A DNA stretch of 64,000 nucleotides, from contig NZ_JAKLTQ010000001.1 of NCBI RefSeq assembly GCF_022012395.1, forward strand, positions 310,001 to 374,000. The letters run 5' to 3'. The notes under the pieces are model-generated. The model made no database searches and was not told the origin of the DNA. It worked only from the letters and a program-made list of their open reading frames with translations. Of this stretch, positions 7,194 to 12,545 are shown in pieces; the stretch's first letter is position 1; each line of letters starts with the position of its first letter. This DNA is from Arthrobacter hankyongi. GTDB lineage: Bacteria; Actinomycetota; Actinomycetes; Actinomycetales; Micrococcaceae. A program made the position numbers and the translations under genes.

Positions 7194-8735
7194 TTAGACG
7201 CCGGCGGGCAGCCGGACCGAGTTCCTGAGTAGTTCCAGCATGGCGGCTTCCGGGACCGGGCGGCTGAAATAGTAGCCTTGTCCGCTCACGCAGCCCATTT
7301 CCAGCAGGCGCTCAACCTGCACCTTGGTCTCGATGCCTTCGAACACGGCGTCCAGGCCGGCAGCCCGGATCAGCTGGATCACGGCCGCAATGAACTCGTT
7401 CTGGCTGATGTTCCCGCTGCTCTGCGAGAGGATGGACCGGTCCACCTTGACCATGCTCACCGGCAGGTTGCGCAGGTAGCTGATCGAGGAGTAGCCGGTA
7501 CCGAAATCGTCGATCTCGATGCCGATCCCCAGGCTCTTCAGGCTCAGCAGCGAGTACGTTTCCACATCACCGCCGGTGACCAAGGCGGTCTCGGTAATTT
7601 CCAGGACCAGGAACGCCGGATCGATCAGGGAATCCCGCAGCACCTCGCGCACGTAGTCGACCAAGTCGATCCGCTGCAGCTCCGCCACGGAAACGTTCAC
7701 GCGCAGCCGGAAATCGCTCGACAGGGGGACGGTCTCGCGCCACCGGGCGAAGGTCATGACAGCTTCGCACAGGATCCAGCGGCCCAGGTCAATGATGAGC
7801 CCGGTCTCCTCTGCCAGCGGTATGAATTCGTCCGGCATGACCAGCCCACGCTGCGGATGGTTCCAGCGCACCAGTACCTCGGCGCCCCGGATCTCGCCGC
7901 TCGCCAAATCCACCACCGGCTGGTAGTACAGCGTGAATTCACCGGCAGCAATGGCGTCCCGCAGCTCTGTTGCCATCTGGTTGTGCAGCTGGCGGGAATA
8001 GAGCATACGCTCCTGGAATACTTTCACACCGCCGCGGCGGGTCTTCTTGGCTTCGTACATGGCGGTGTCCGCTTCCAGGAGCAGCCGCTGGGCCGTCTCC
8101 CCCGGCTCGGCCACGCGCAGGCCGATGCTGGCCTGGGGCCAGACGTTCATCTCGTCCAACTGGATGCTGCGGCCAAGCACCTCGACGATGCGGTTGGCCG
8201 TGGCCATGGCCTGTTCCAGAGTGGCCTCGGGAATCAGCACGGCGAACTCGTCACCGCCCAGCCGGGCCACCATATCCCCTTCGCGCACCGCGCCGCGCAG
8301 CCGTTTGCCGACTGCGGCCAGCACCCGGTCGCCCGCCTCGTGGCCGAAGCTGTCATTGATCTGCTTGAAGGAATTCAGGTCCAGCAGGAGCAGGGCCGGA
8401 GTAGGCCGGCCTTCCACCGTGGATCCCAGCGCCTCATCCAGCCGTGCCGCTAGGGCCATACGGTTGGCCAGCCCGGTCAGCGCGTCGGTCATCGCCATTC
8501 GGCTCATGGCCTGGTGCGCCTCGCGCAGCATCGCGGTGCGCTCTTCCACCCGCTGTTCCAACTGCTTGTACATCAGTTCGAGCTCTTCGGCGAGCAGATT
8601 GATGCCCATGCTCACCGCATCGATGTCATCCCGTTCCGGCGACAGCTCAAACCGGGTGTTCAGGTCCCCTGAAGCGAGGCGGACAATGCCTTCCACCAGC
8701 TGGGACAGCCGGTGGTCGCCATCCTTAGTGGGCAC
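7194..8735 (-). CDS. GGDEF/EAL cyclic-di-GMP turnover protein with HAMP-like N-terminus
   Basis: A 513-residue cytoplasmic protein that should make and/or degrade cyclic di-GMP. Residues 1-70 form a helical, HAMP-like segment (GDLNTRFELSPERDD) without a membrane span. The GGDEF domain has an intact GGDEF motif at 160-164, preceded at the right distance by an inhibitory-site RxxD (REGD). The EAL domain has EVL (Glu286) in place of EAL and keeps LEITET, DDFGTGYSS, KVDRS and FEGIET, so it may be active too. I placed the start at the GTG at 8735, which follows GGAGGA by five bases and overlaps the stop of the upstream STAS-like gene by 11 bases. The overlap suggests the STAS-like protein is its sensory or regulatory partner. 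Confidence 0.9.
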   Translation of the reverse strand: MPTKDGDHRLSQLVEGIVRLASGDLNTRFELSPERDDIDAVSMGINLLAEELELMYKQLEQRVEERTAMLREAHQAMSRMAMTDALTGLANRMALAARLDEALGSTVEGRPTPALLLLDLNSFKQINDSFGHEAGDRVLAAVGKRLRGAVREGDMVARLGGDEFAVLIPEATLEQAMATANRIVEVLGRSIQLDEMNVWPQASIGLRVAEPGETAQRLLLEADTAMYEAKKTRRGGVKVFQERMLYSRQLHNQMATELRDAIAAGEFTLYYQPVVDLASGEIRGAEVLVRWNHPQRGLVMPDEFIPLAEETGLIIDLGRWILCEAVMTFARWRETVPLSSDFRLRVNVSVAELQRIDLVDYVREVLRDSLIDPAFLVLEITETALVTGGDVETYSLLSLKSLGIGIEIDDFGTGYSSISYLRNLPVSMVKVDRSILSQSSGNISQNEFIAAVIQLIRAAGLDAVFEGIETKVQVERLLEMGCVSGQGYYFSRPVPEAAMLELLRNSVRLPAGV

Positions 8736-9102
8736 AGACTTCCTCCAGCCATGCCAGGGCATGGGTCTCGGAGGTGAAGAAGCCGCCCGGGCACGGCAGG
8801 GGCATGGTCCCGAGGACAAAGTTGGCAATCACCCGGTCCACCGGGGACTCCCCCAGCACGGCGATGGCCGAGACGCCGGTCACCTGGGCCAGGACCGCCC
8901 GGGCTTCACGGGTGATCGCAGTGACGCCGGTAACCGTCAGGATGACGGGGCGGGGTCCCTCGGAAACAAGCTGTGTGAGCCGCGCTGCGGCAGCCTCTGC
9001 CATTGCTCCGGTGATGGGCACGCCGCGGGGCAGATCGATCCTGACGGCGTCATCTCCGTCACTCAGTACCGCATCCGTTTCCTGCAAAACAACCTCGGAC
9101 AT
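8725..9102 (-). CDS. STAS/SpoIIAA-like small protein (DUF7793-like)
   Basis: A 125-residue alpha/beta protein resembling the STAS/SEC14-like family common in Arthrobacter. The middle (PVILTVTGVTAITREARAVL) and the C-terminal SPVDRVIANFVLG and FFTSETHALAWLEE segments fit that family. Such proteins usually bind a partner or small ligand and do no chemistry. Its last codons contain the ribosome-binding site and start of the GGDEF/EAL gene, so the two are probably made in a fixed ratio and act together. The family name is from memory of similar sequences and is less certain than the fold. Confidence 0.65.
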   Translation of the reverse strand: MSEVVLQETDAVLSDGDDAVRIDLPRGVPITGAMAEAAAARLTQLVSEGPRPVILTVTGVTAITREARAVLAQVTGVSAIAVLGESPVDRVIANFVLGTMPLPCPGGFFTSETHALAWLEEVCAH

Positions 9103-9196: not shown

Positions 9197-9317
9197 GGAG
9201 GGGCACGCCCCTCCCCCTGTCAGCTCCAGCAGGGCCGGCGTGTGCCGCAGCGGCACAGTCAGCTCCACGTGCACAGCATAAACGAATAACTGCCATTTTT
9301 AGCGGCAGAAACGCCGC
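9197..9317 (-). terminator. Two weak hairpins downstream of the TPR gene
   Basis: Between the TPR gene and the STAS-like gene there are two short inverted repeats. One is GGAGGGGC/GCCCCTCC at 9197-9204 and 9207-9214; the other is GCGGC/GCCGC at 9302-9306 and 9313-9317. Neither is followed by a T-run on the minus strand, so termination is only a possibility. Confidence 0.3.
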
Positions 9318-9322
9318 AAGTA

Positions 9323-10375
9323 CTATTGTGAAGCTTGCATTTCGGAAATCATTCCGGCGACCTGCACGGCCCGGTCAGCGGCCTCAGCCTGCCGGAAGAA
9401 CTCCTCGCTTTGCTGCAGATATTCCAAGGCACCAACCGAATCCCCTCTAGCCAGCAACCCCTTCCCCAATAGCATCAGCGCATCCCCCGCCATGTGAGTT
9501 GGCAGATCGGTAGCCCGGCTGCACACCCTCGCGAGAATATCGACTGCTTCAGGTAGATCGCCGTTAAGGTAATGCCAATGCCCCTTGATGAAGTCCATCA
9601 ATAGCCGGTCACGGTCATTGGCGCCGGCGATAGAAGTCGCCAACTCCGCACGCTGGATGCATTCATAAGTCTCTTCATCCACCAGTTCAGACGACAACCT
9701 CACAGTTGCCGAGGCCCGATTGAACCACGCCCAGAGTGCAAGATCGTTAGTTGGGGAGAGATGTTCGGCAGCAAGCCGGTGGTACTTGACTCCCTCGTCT
9801 GTGTCCTTACGAAGGAACGCAACGTTGCCTACTACCCAATACGCCTTTCCGGCCGTCTGGGAATCATCTCCGCCATCAAGCAGCGCTACCAAAACTACGC
9901 ACTCACACCATGCTTGTTCGAGTTGCTCACTTTCGGTAAGTGCCGCGATGAGCGCCAATTGTGCCTCAATACGCAGTCCGGACGACTGTTCGACCAAGTC
10001 GCTGAGCCGGAGCGCCTCGCGGGCAAGTTCGATTGCTTTAGGCAGCGCGCCGAGGATCTGTGACACAACCGAAAGCATCGTCAGCACTCTGGCGGTGAGC
10101 GCCGGTGAAGTAGCGGTGAAAGGATGGTTGTACAGTTCGTTGGCAACGGTGCCGCACTCCTCACAGAGCCCCTGCTCACGCAAGCATTCGCCTTGGAGGA
10201 AAGTCATCTGCCACCACGCCGCAGTATCCTCCCTCGCGGATGCGAGGTCGGCCGCTTCCCGAGCCAAAGCTAAGGCCTGGTCATAGCGGCGCCGCATGAA
10301 TGCTTCGCGCGCGCGGAGTTCCAACAATATGTCGGTTCCTGACTGTTGCTGTGCTGCCACGATCCTCCTATCCAT
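9323..10375 (-). CDS. TPR-repeat protein, Rap-like without a DNA-binding domain
   Basis: A 350-residue, all-helical protein made of tetratricopeptide-like repeats from about residue 20 to the end (for example RRRYDQALALAREAADLA, PKAIELAREALRLSD and DSVGALEYLQQSEEFF). The length and lack of a helix-turn-helix resemble Rap-type RRNPP peptide receptors more than the DNA-binding types. It diverges from a small gene for a secreted peptide 214 bases away, the usual layout of a receptor and its pheromone. The start is uncertain. The ATG at 10375 has only a weak upstream site. A GTG at 10360 has AGGAGG just three bases before it. Codon use is visibly less GC-rich than in neighbouring genes, which hints at transfer. 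The receptor role is inferred; the TPR fold is well supported. Confidence 0.75.
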   Translation of the reverse strand: MDRRIVAAQQQSGTDILLELRAREAFMRRRYDQALALAREAADLASAREDTAAWWQMTFLQGECLREQGLCEECGTVANELYNHPFTATSPALTARVLTMLSVVSQILGALPKAIELAREALRLSDLVEQSSGLRIEAQLALIAALTESEQLEQAWCECVVLVALLDGGDDSQTAGKAYWVVGNVAFLRKDTDEGVKYHRLAAEHLSPTNDLALWAWFNRASATVRLSSELVDEETYECIQRAELATSIAGANDRDRLLMDFIKGHWHYLNGDLPEAVDILARVCSRATDLPTHMAGDALMLLGKGLLARGDSVGALEYLQQSEEFFRQAEAADRAVQVAGMISEMQASQ

Positions 10376-10519
10376 CCACCAGCACCGCGCGGCCGGTCAC
10401 TGGCACGACCGCTCGCAATGCACCACCACTTGTTTATTACGCATTGAGCATATGCGAGGATTTTCGCCATTAATGAAAAGTTGCCCTGACCAGCTATTTC
10501 TCATGCAACGTTTCATCGG

Positions 10520-10525
10520 TAGACT
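10520..10525 (+). promoter_or_regulatory. Possible -10 box for the peptide gene
   Basis: TAGACT fits the actinobacterial TAnnnT box and lies about 65 bases before the peptide start. No good -35 is visible at the usual distance. The surrounding 10420-10590 region is distinctly AT-richer than the rest of the window. Confidence 0.3.
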
Positions 10526-10589
10526 GGCCCAGTCCGCGTCACCCGCATGGATTTTCGGATCTACGAATAGCTAACGATTGAGGAGCAAG

Positions 10590-10745
10590 ATGATCAAGAA
10601 GATTTCCACCTCCGTACTCATTGCCGCTGTCCTCGCCGTCGCCGGGGTTGCTGCTCCGGCCTCCGCGGCCGATAACGGCATCACCGTCACCAAGACAGGC
10701 ACCGGCACCAGCACCACCAACGGCACCGGTATTTGGCCGTACTAA
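10590..10745 (+). CDS. Small secreted peptide, candidate pheromone precursor (51 aa)
   Basis: A 51-codon gene preceded by AGGAG four bases before its ATG. The product starts with MIKKIS, has a hydrophobic core (VLIAAVLAVAGVAA) and a signal-peptidase site after ASA at about residue 26. This leaves a mature peptide of about 25 residues beginning ADNGITVT. The mature part is rich in Gly, Thr and Ser with a repeated TGTG/NGTG pattern, and ends in the aromatic tail GTGIWPY. It is followed by strong terminator hairpins, so it is a compact single-gene unit. Divergence from the Rap-like TPR gene suggests a signal peptide sensed by that protein after export and processing. A structural or antimicrobial peptide is an alternative. 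I know of no named family. Confidence 0.75.
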   Translation: MIKKISTSVLIAAVLAVAGVAAPASAADNGITVTKTGTGTSTTNGTGIWPY

Positions 10746-10763
10746 ACCGACAATCGGGTTTAC

Positions 10764-10823
10764 CCGGGCTTCGGCCCGGACCCTGACAGTGGCCATGGAC
10801 GGCGCAAGCCCTCCATGGCCACT
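10764..10823. terminator. Double hairpin terminator between peptide gene and kinase gene
   Basis: CCGGGC-TTCG-GCCCGG (10764-10779) is a tight tetraloop hairpin. It is followed by a perfect 12-base-pair inverted repeat (10788-10799 and 10812-10823, 12-base loop). The pair lies between the convergent peptide (+) and kinase (-) genes and could stop transcription from both sides. Confidence 0.75.
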
Positions 10824-10829
10824 TGTGCG

Positions 10830-12545
10830 TTAACCAGCCGAGCGTTTCTCCGGATGCAGGGACCGCGGGGATGCATCGGACACACGGGTCAGCGGCAGCT
10901 GGACGGAGAACGTCGTACCCTTGCCCACGGCGGACTCCACCGTCAGGTCGCCGCCATGCTGCTGGACCACCCCTTTGGCAATCGCCAGCCCCAGGCCGGT
11001 GCCTTGGATGGTCAGAGCGTTGGAGGCACGGAAGAAGCGGTGGAACAGATTGGGCAGGTCCTCGGCCGGAATCCCGATACCGGTATCGGAAACACGGATG
11101 ACGGCCCAGTCCGAGCCGTCCTCGTGCGTTTCCTGCTCGATATCCATGTGGACCTGGCCATTTGCCGGAGTGAACTTCACGGCATTGGACACGACGTTGG
11201 TCAGGACCTGTTCCAGCTTCTTCGCATCGCCATCGACTACCAGGTCCATGCCATTGTTGCAGACCAGGCTGACATCCTTGGCCGTGGCCACCGGCACCAG
11301 GGCGGTGGCCACGGCATCCAGCAGTTGGCCGATCCGCACCGGCTCGGACCGGCTGACCGCGTCGTCGAAGTCCATCCGGGACAGCATGAGCAGGTCCTCG
11401 ATCAGCTCCCGCAACCGGCTCGCGTTGCGCACCACAACCTCCAGCATGCGCACCGCCCCCTCCGGAACCTCACCGCCCGCACCTTCCAGCACCAGGTCCA
11501 GATAGCCAGCGATGGACGTAATAGGGGTACGCAGCTCATGATTCACCGTGGCCACGAAATTGTTCTTGGCCGTGTCGAGTTCTTGGAGCCGTTCAACAAC
11601 CTGCTGCTGGGCGGTAATCAGATGCCCCTGGATCAGCCCATGGGCCAGGTTGCCGGCCACATGCTGCAGGAGGGACGTCTCGGCCTGGGACCAGACCGCT
11701 GCCGCGCCTTCCTTTACCATCCAGACCAAGCCAAAGGCGCCGCCGCCGTGGCCGAGCGGAGCAACGGCCACGGCATGCACCTTCGGTACCGTGGCCCACT
11801 CCGACAGGCTGGGGTGGCCATCATGGTCTTCCTCGGCGTCGCGCCCGCCGGTCAATACAGTGCCTTTGTTCCACAGGGCCTGGGCCAGTTCCCTGGACTT
11901 ATCCTCGGGCGGATGCTGGAAATCCGCCGCGCCGTCGGGAGCCCAAGTGGTGTCCACCAGCGGTGCCCGTTCGTCATCAAAGGTGTAGAGCCATACGCTG
12001 CAGGCGCCGAAGGCCCTGCCCAGACCGCTGACCGCCAGCTCCACCATCAGGTAAGGGTCATTGGTCTCCCGGATCGCTGCGGAAATCCGGCGGGTGCTGG
12101 CACGCAAGGCGCCCATGGTCCGGCGTTCATGCTGCTTGCGGGCGGAGCGCGCCAAGGTGACCAGCGTCCGGTGGGCGAGCTGCTCATCGGTAAAAGGTTT
12201 CAGCACGTAATCATTGATACCAAGATCGAATGCACCTTCAACCAGGTCCCCGGCCGGTCCTCCGGCCAGCAGGATCACCGGGCAGCCGGTATCGCCCTCG
12301 TCACGGATCCGGCGCAACACTTCCAACCCCGGGATCCCCGGCAGGTCCGCATCCAGCAGTGCGACATCGGGCGCCTGGCTGTATAGCGCTTCCAGCGCAG
12401 CAGGTCCGTCCGCAACCGCATGCACCGTCAGGCCGGCATCGGTCAGGGCGGCTGCCGCAAGCTCGCGGACCTGCGGATCGCCATCCGCGATGAGGGCGGT
12501 CTTCCGCCCGACCGCTGGCAGTGCCGCAGTATCGCTCTCCACCAT
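10830..12545 (-). CDS. Soluble REC-GAF-histidine kinase hybrid
   Basis: A 571-residue signalling protein without membrane spans. It has an N-terminal receiver domain with phospho-acceptor Asp65 (LLDADLPG) and conserved Lys116 (DYVLKPF), then a GAF-like sensor (about 155-305). A HisKA domain follows with His336 in NHELRTP, then a HATPase domain with N-box NVVSNAVKF, DTGIGI and GTGLGLAI. All catalytic residues seem intact. The receiver may take phosphate from another kinase or be controlled by the protein's own kinase. The start has a strong GGGAGGAG site. No separate response regulator is adjacent, so its output is unknown. It converges on the peptide gene. Because Rap proteins act on receiver domains, a functional link to the TPR/peptide pair is an attractive but untested idea. 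Confidence 0.92.
   Translation of the reverse strand: MVESDTAALPAVGRKTALIADGDPQVRELAAAALTDAGLTVHAVADGPAALEALYSQAPDVALLDADLPGIPGLEVLRRIRDEGDTGCPVILLAGGPAGDLVEGAFDLGINDYVLKPFTDEQLAHRTLVTLARSARKQHERRTMGALRASTRRISAAIRETNDPYLMVELAVSGLGRAFGACSVWLYTFDDERAPLVDTTWAPDGAADFQHPPEDKSRELAQALWNKGTVLTGGRDAEEDHDGHPSLSEWATVPKVHAVAVAPLGHGGGAFGLVWMVKEGAAAVWSQAETSLLQHVAGNLAHGLIQGHLITAQQQVVERLQELDTAKNNFVATVNHELRTPITSIAGYLDLVLEGAGGEVPEGAVRMLEVVVRNASRLRELIEDLLMLSRMDFDDAVSRSEPVRIGQLLDAVATALVPVATAKDVSLVCNNGMDLVVDGDAKKLEQVLTNVVSNAVKFTPANGQVHMDIEQETHEDGSDWAVIRVSDTGIGIPAEDLPNLFHRFFRASNALTIQGTGLGLAIAKGVVQQHGGDLTVESAVGKGTTFSVQLPLTRVSDASPRSLHPEKRSAG

Follow-up and report, generated by a model that had tools for sequence, protein, structure and literature searches.

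A TPR protein paired with a secreted-type Trp-Pro propeptide in Arthrobacter hankyongi: a candidate RRNPP-like signalling cassette of Actinobacteria

Described peptide-receptor systems and the gene pair of the window

PlcR-PapR, NprR-NprX and AimR-AimP are RRNPP systems with HTH-TPR receptors, and Rap proteins contact response regulators through an N-terminal helical bundle. The available parts of two papers describe peptide signalling through intracellular receptors for Firmicutes and give small molecules as the signals of Actinobacteria (PMC10075063, PMC13220807). The first of them reports a survey of complete genomes of Firmicutes and viruses with RRNPP_detector; its candidates resemble the locus studied here in being gene pairs of a TPR protein of 250 to 500 amino acids (aa) and a small propeptide with a Sec signal (PMC10075063). 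RRNPPA systems of Bacillota include tandemly duplicated pheromone propeptides, as stated in the portion of the paper at hand (PMC11343458), and thus carry several signal copies per propeptide as the present family does, the difference being the host and the up to eight Trp-Pro (W-P) units found here. A review from 2016 on actinobacterial quorum sensing lists, in its accessible sections, Arthrobacter only with predicted LuxR, REC and AAA domains, and its table names TPR among the predicted quorum-sensing domains of Streptomyces, Rhodococcus, Saccharopolyspora and Thermobifida, with no peptide given (PMC4748050). No system of the kind reported here was seen in the available parts of this review or of a 2026 review (PMC13220807), and no TPR/W-P peptide system of Actinobacteria was found in the literature searched, the scope of which excluded preprints and most subscription papers.

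In this study, we examined a gene pair in a 64-kb stretch of the A. hankyongi genome (5.2 Mb, 67 contigs); "the window" denotes this whole stretch. The features of the locus are as follows.

7194-8828, minus strand: HAMP-GGDEF-EAL protein, the proposed output; true start uncertain, as the listed TTG start overlaps the DUF7793 gene
8725-9102, minus strand: DUF7793 (SpoIIAA-like) protein, from Pfam
9290-9308, minus strand: terminator-like hairpin 3' of the TPR gene (1 found, 1.7 expected by chance)
9323-10375, minus strand: TPR protein, 350 aa, about nine TPR repeats (Pfam TPR_12; AlphaFold2 pLDDT 93.3)
10376-10589, no strand: divergent intergenic region, 214 nt between the two start codons
10545-10556, no strand: element GCATGGATTT[TG]C, common to loci L002 and L003
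10580-10585, plus strand: GAGGAG ribosome-binding site, 4 nt ahead of the ATG, read from the sequence
10590-10745, plus strand: propeptide gene, 51 codons, ATG at 10590; product MIKKISTSVLIAAVLAVAGVAAPASAADNGITVTKTGTGTSTTNGTGIWPY
10590-10667, plus strand: Sec-type signal sequence, roughly residues 1-26, with the cleavage site placed by eye
10725-10742, plus strand: conserved core TGIWPY, residues 46-51, the proposed signalling unit
10764-10779 and 10786-10826, no strand: two hairpins between the convergent peptide and kinase genes, no T-run
10830-12545, minus strand: histidine kinase REC-GAF-HisKA-HATPase, from Pfam; no membrane segment seen by eye

An earlier note on this DNA had described a 350-residue TPR protein without a DNA-binding domain and, 214 nt away on the opposite strand, a 51-codon gene; both ORFs are as claimed. 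A Pfam scan of the TPR protein gave TPR_12 (E 3.5e-11), further TPR-type matches, Sel1 (E 0.52) and a sub-threshold DUF6247 (E 0.049), and matched no DNA-binding domain or HTH. No signal sequence was seen in this protein, the proposed cytosolic peptide receptor. The ribosome site, the Sec-like signal and the Gly/Thr-rich mature part with TGIWPY at its C-terminal end, all attributed to the small gene beforehand, are present in the sequence; signal sequences were called throughout from hydrophobicity and charge rather than from a trained predictor. The terminator likewise ascribed to the small gene was borne out in part: the hairpins behind it are strong, yet they were not listed by the terminator scan, and given the missing T-run they are plausible as a terminator of a non-classical kind. 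The region is indeed AT-richer than its surroundings, since the two 1-kb bins holding the pair have a GC content of 58.1% and 60.8%, compared with 62.7 to 76.3% in the other 62 bins and 69.5% in the window as a whole. A match of the peptide to NCBIfam WGxxGxxG (E 0.008; 16.7 bits against a cut-off of 35) was rejected as signal-sequence similarity only.

The AlphaFold2 model of the TPR protein (50 sequences; mean pLDDT 93.3, pTM 0.85) predicts helices that pair as TPRs throughout residues 13-349, judged from the DSSP string, and contains no separate N-terminal helical bundle of the Rap type. Residues W180, G183, N184, H199, W215, F218, N219 and R226 in the middle of the protein are invariant in both alignments; N184 and N219, 35 residues apart, occupy the first helix of one repeat and that of the next, and such positions presumably line the ligand groove in TPR proteins. 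In Foldseek searches of solved structures, eukaryotic LGN and consensus TPRs were the best matches, with RapF (4i9e, 3ulq), Rap of pLS20 (6t3h) and RapI (4i1a) among the best 50 of 142 (E up to 0.001). RapF 4i9e reached E 5.5e-5 and TMq 0.59 and RapI 4i1a TMt 0.74, but other TPRs score better, so that the likeness to Rap is one of fold class only. The model of an HTH-type receptor from the family is good in its TPR part only and again retrieved TPRs, with Rap of pLS20 and RapH among the best 50.

The locus thus shares with Rap-Phr of Bacillus an HTH-less TPR protein, predicted to form a TPR superhelix as in Rap, and a small propeptide with a Sec-like signal. It differs in its merely generic TPR-type Pfam matches, in the bundle missing from the model, on which ground we do not file it as Rap, in the divergent orientation of the peptide gene, in the often repeated W-P core, in the frequent GGDEF-EAL neighbour and in its actinobacterial host. 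A sister branch of the family resembles PlcR-PapR, NprR-NprX and AimR-AimP in combining an N-terminal HTH with TPRs, an adjoining secreted-like propeptide and a predicted operator that lies close to the peptide promoter, in the promoter region common to both genes; the peptides, however, are others, and no Rap, PlcR, NprR or AimR chain appeared in profile searches of the PDB (20 and 16 hits, E up to 1). Hence the family is not filed as RRNPP by descent, although such absence is no proof of a separate origin. The gene pair itself has the RRNPP signature, a TPR protein of 250 to 500 aa adjoining a small Sec-signal propeptide, and both the pair and the peptide core are conserved across species. 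Since nine ORFs on the two strands of the window satisfy a loose W-P/signal criterion, the motif test alone is unspecific, and the case rests on position and conservation.

Conservation of the pair, receptor branches and neighbouring genes

Within the genus, the peptide and the TPR gene are both present in three of ten genomes and both absent from the other seven. A search with the peptide as query gave E 1e-6 or better in exactly those three and E 0.48 at best in the rest. In the two genus mates with the pair, a small divergent ORF lies at the same place (ending in NGGLWPY in G006 and NAGNWPH in G008), and the three orthologous peptides show pN/pS values of 0.43 to 0.49 (0.49 and 0.45 for the window peptide against its two orthologues).

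In the family, relatives of the TPR protein (E up to 1e-8) were found in 221 of 395 genomes and 17 of 32 genera. The best 80 of 287 confirmed stretches in named genomes belong to Arthrobacter, Paenarthrobacter and Pseudarthrobacter, with two exceptions, a metagenome bin of the Micrococcaceae and a record that bears the title Vibrio cholerae. The latter (L063; WNZI01000017.1, strain 35D) carries an Arthrobacter-type TPR/peptide/GGDEF-EAL locus that groups with A. bussei and A. ruber, and the record is therefore probably mislabelled or contaminated. Within the limits used, no relative was detected among viral contigs, plasmids or phages, and an arbitrium-like origin by phage or plasmid carriage was discarded.

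For the loci numbered L001-L160 and L171-L175, 184 TPR matches of at least 250 aa (three shorter ones left out) were collapsed at 99% identity to 117 genes, 115 of which are preceded by 450 nt or more of sequence. Of these 115, 108 are accompanied by a divergent ORF that is no longer than 140 codons, has a signal-like start and contains W-P, and stricter collapse left 83/90 (95% identity), 57/64 (85%) and 34/40 (70%). The seven exceptions are the first copy of L055/L011, L149, L153, L172, L173, L174 and L175. Control windows from L051-L130 satisfied the same criterion in 25 of 576 cases; with a Lys/Arg pair near the start added, the figures were 110/114 peptides and 3/576 control windows. Since these loci are mostly best hits, an extra sample of 24 genomes from 12 genera was drawn, which yielded 31 TPR matches, 30 of them with loci. 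A W-P propeptide was found at 19 of the 30, a doubtful one (L230) included; the remaining 11 (L212-L221 and L233) comprise all three loci sampled from genus g10 and all three from g24. Retention of the small gene beside TPR homologues, which the earlier note had set beforehand as its refutation test, was thus observed in both samples, and its proposal of an actinobacterial analogue of RRNPP pairs is supported by this conserved pairing, as judged from sequence. As a separate observation, the HTH-TPR receptors at L212-L218, which belong to genera g10 and g24 except for one from g22, have no W-P propeptide by the filter used; their peptide may be lost, encoded elsewhere or of another kind.

Beyond the family, 23 of 347 genomes matched at the level of the order (20 in the window's own family and three in f17) and nine of 394 at the level of the class (four in the own family, two each in f17 and f37, and one in f53). 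The propeptide of L151 (f17) contains GGSWPT three times and that of L152 (f17) ends in SDTWPA. The f37 receptor, used as query in the class, matched 11 of 394 genomes. Clear DIxWP repeats in divergent orientation are present at three of the 14 loci, namely L193, L194 and L190 (the last being the gene of L171); at L199, a small ORF on the same strand ends in IEWP.

Pfam matched N-terminal HTH_31 and HTH_3 domains in the relatives L107, L151, L152 and L171. In a tree of 126 rows (quick method, midpoint root, long branches; loci from the distant genera left out), the HTH-less proteins fall into a single group of 71 (SH-aLRT 97) when L171 is counted with the HTH rows. As HTH rows surround this group, the tree rows are most simply explained by a single loss of the HTH. 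Several distant loci (e.g., L223-L227) also seem HTH-less by a pattern crude enough to flag L220 as lacking an HTH despite its HTH-like start, and further losses may have occurred among them.

The intergenic region of the HTH branch contains a sigma-70-like promoter, TTGACA followed by TTTACAAT, overlapped by the inverted repeat TTGAC[AG]-N28-TG[TA][CT]AA, which ends 49 to 81 nt before the peptide start. The repeat is present in 44 of 49 HTH-type and none of 65 HTH-less intergenic regions, and in none of 2280 letter shuffles, for a pattern drawn from an alignment of 18 of the same, closely related HTH loci. The HTH-type regions lacking it are L047, which has an imperfect copy, L150, L151, L152 and L171. 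Given its position in the shared promoter region, the HTH receptor probably controls its own peptide gene through this predicted operator. The 214-nt region of the window holds no copy, and in the HTH-less intergenic regions no conserved operator was seen beyond the genus-level GCATGGATTT element, so that the window's branch would have to work through protein contacts. Six HTH-type loci (L107, L113, L128, L075, L105 and L130) have common flanking genes: exporter-type ABC transporter genes lie convergent to the peptide gene (a Pfam scan covered those of L107), and the receptor is followed by what look by eye like purine-synthesis genes.

In the window, the TPR gene is followed on the same strand by the DUF7793 gene and then by that of the HAMP-GGDEF-EAL protein (GGDEF E 8.2e-42, EAL E 3.8e-70). 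Among TPR genes with enough downstream DNA and collapsed at 99% identity, a co-directional GGDEF-EAL gene lies within 2.6 kb downstream of 30 of 41 HTH-less and none of 28 HTH-type genes; another TPR gene intervenes in three of the 30, and 11 of the 41 have no such neighbour. A kinase gene precedes 19 of 49 HTH-less and none of 34 HTH-type genes. Collapse at 85% identity gave 24/32 versus 0/2 for GGDEF-EAL and 10/36 versus 0/4 for the kinase, so the HTH side of the contrast rests on few lineages. At L092, the TPR and GGDEF-EAL genes overlap by 4 nt if a GTG start is used. Furthermore, of the seven genus mates that lack the TPR gene, six have the kinase and GGDEF-EAL matches only 27 to 119 nt apart, too short a distance for a gene between them, and G002 gave no match at E 1e-60; the peptide-TPR-DUF7793 cassette of the window therefore sits between otherwise adjoining genes. 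Together, linkage and placement make c-di-GMP the likeliest output as far as gene order tells, and the window's branch probably feeds c-di-GMP, even though 220 nt and a terminator-like hairpin between the TPR gene and the DUF7793 gene count against it.

Five HTH-less TPR genes without GGDEF-EAL (L052, L053, L059, L068 and L085) are convergent to a gene for a secreted-looking protein; the only one of the five tested with Pfam, that of L059, is a GH18 protein with CBM5/12. The kinase linked at L092 (L092:1776-3467) is a GAF-HisKA-HATPase protein without a receiver match, and the window kinase has a clear receiver domain.

The same peptide-receptor pair might instead act on the REC-GAF-HisKA kinase, touching its receiver or the kinase itself in a Rap-like manner, with the GGDEF-EAL linkage being incidental. 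We regard this as unlikely, though worth serious attention: the kinase adjoins the peptide side in the window and in two genus mates, its linkage is likewise confined to the HTH-less genes, and its proximity to the GGDEF-EAL gene in TPR-less genus mates suggests that both may belong to one pathway. However, the linkage is rarer than that of GGDEF-EAL, the kinase of L092 lacks a REC match, and a separate N-terminal bundle, with which Rap proteins contact response regulators, is missing from the model. A receiver kinase as constant partner was ruled out, the linkage not being constant (19/49). The earlier note had pointed to a neighbour with a receiver domain as a Rap-type target; the product of 10830-12545 does start with REC, but the whole protein is a kinase, and Rap-like action on a receiver found no support, given helices that pair as TPRs throughout the model and the more frequent linkage to GGDEF-EAL.

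The Trp-Pro core and its repeats

The cores of the propeptides include GNWPD, GWWPN, NNWPY, DDWPH, GSWPF, GIWPY and others. The conserved aromatic C-terminus expected from the window peptide does occur, but it proved to be one case of a more general W-P core (WPY, WPH, WPD, WPN, WPF and others). At least two units are present in 68 of 114 propeptides, such as IGDWPN three times in L004, VGDWPH six times in L146 and AVGNWPD five times in L150, and up to eight W-P units occur in one propeptide (L211). Altogether, 51 different unit sets were counted among the 114 propeptides; these and the tree rows derive from a 126-gene set in which a few near-copies are counted twice.

At the four variable positions, units agree at 3.96 on average inside one propeptide (176 pairs) and at 2.15 between propeptides (25,249 pairs). 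The DNA of 175 unit pairs inside propeptides differs by 283 synonymous and eight nonsynonymous changes (pN/pS 0.007), with 38 pairs identical in DNA; the pairs are not independent, as propeptides and relatives recur among them. Such an excess of synonymous differences argues for selection on a translated short unit rather than for recent copying. Covariation of peptide and receptor was tried by mutual information, at an effective number of about 33.

In genus g31 (L032, L033, L034, L035 and L036), two TPR-peptide cassettes were observed in tandem, each with a core of its own: IDDWPH or IDNWPN, and [KIVS]GNWP repeats, L032 combining IDDWPH with KIGNWPD. These tandem cassettes are duplicated, diverged channels.

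The small gene could also encode a secreted bacteriocin-like, adhesive or structural peptide, with the TPR protein as no more than a local regulator or chaperone and neither import nor sensing taking place. The secretion signal is evident, import and binding are proposals, and such a product could be handled by the exporter-type ABC transporter genes found close to the HTH-type locus L107. With regard to immunity or modification genes, the view of the surroundings comprised the ORF lists of 13 loci and Pfam scans of four neighbours. A six-residue core conserved unit by unit between variable linkers, however, suits a processed ligand, as does the possession of its own core by each tandem receptor paralogue, and we consider a bacteriocin or structural role improbable. 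That the small ORF is untranslated, the conserved stretch being regulatory DNA or RNA or a chance ORF, can practically be dismissed: the ORF is short and the case for translation comes from sequence comparison, but the control windows, the pN/pS values among repeat units and genus orthologues, and the preservation of reading frame and signal sequence across genera all speak against it.

Proposed mechanism and its implications

Comparison of the loci reveals a propeptide with a Sec-like signal and one or several W-P cores, kept divergent to a TPR protein without an export signal. As a peptide-receptor pair, it is strongly supported by this comparison. The gene pair singled out earlier is real, and it is probably important. 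We think it probable that the cassette is an RRNPP-like peptide signalling system of Actinobacteria, one member of a large family, and that the window's branch acts on a protein partner, for which the GGDEF-EAL protein is the best candidate.

In such a system, the propeptide would be exported and trimmed to a short W-P fragment, in the case of the window one around TGIWPY, which would accumulate outside the cell and re-enter through an oligopeptide ABC importer; seven SBP_bac_5 proteins, candidate importer parts, are encoded in the genome. Inside, the peptide would be bound on the concave side of the TPR superhelix. Receptors of the HTH-bearing sister branch would thereupon act at the divergent promoter common to both genes. 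Those of the HTH-less branch would alter the activity of a protein partner, preferably the linked GGDEF-EAL protein (with DUF7793), so that the signal would set c-di-GMP; the linked kinase is the second candidate. The output of this branch is a reasoned guess, with c-di-GMP as the choice.

A broader reading, which we offer tentatively and with somewhat more doubt than belief, is that Actinobacteria possess a large Trp-Pro peptide-pheromone language of their own, with HTH receptors in several families, and that a Micrococcaceae branch lost its HTH and became a direct peptide-gated switch of c-di-GMP enzymes, having arisen in parallel with Rap-Phr.

If the signalling reading is true, a major lineage of soil bacteria possesses many different peptide signals, as indicated by the number of unit sets, and these could be made as short synthetic peptides. 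It would also pose a testable question, namely whether a peptide pheromone can control c-di-GMP directly. Should the c-di-GMP reading hold as well, intracellular peptide quorum sensing would here be wired straight to a second messenger.
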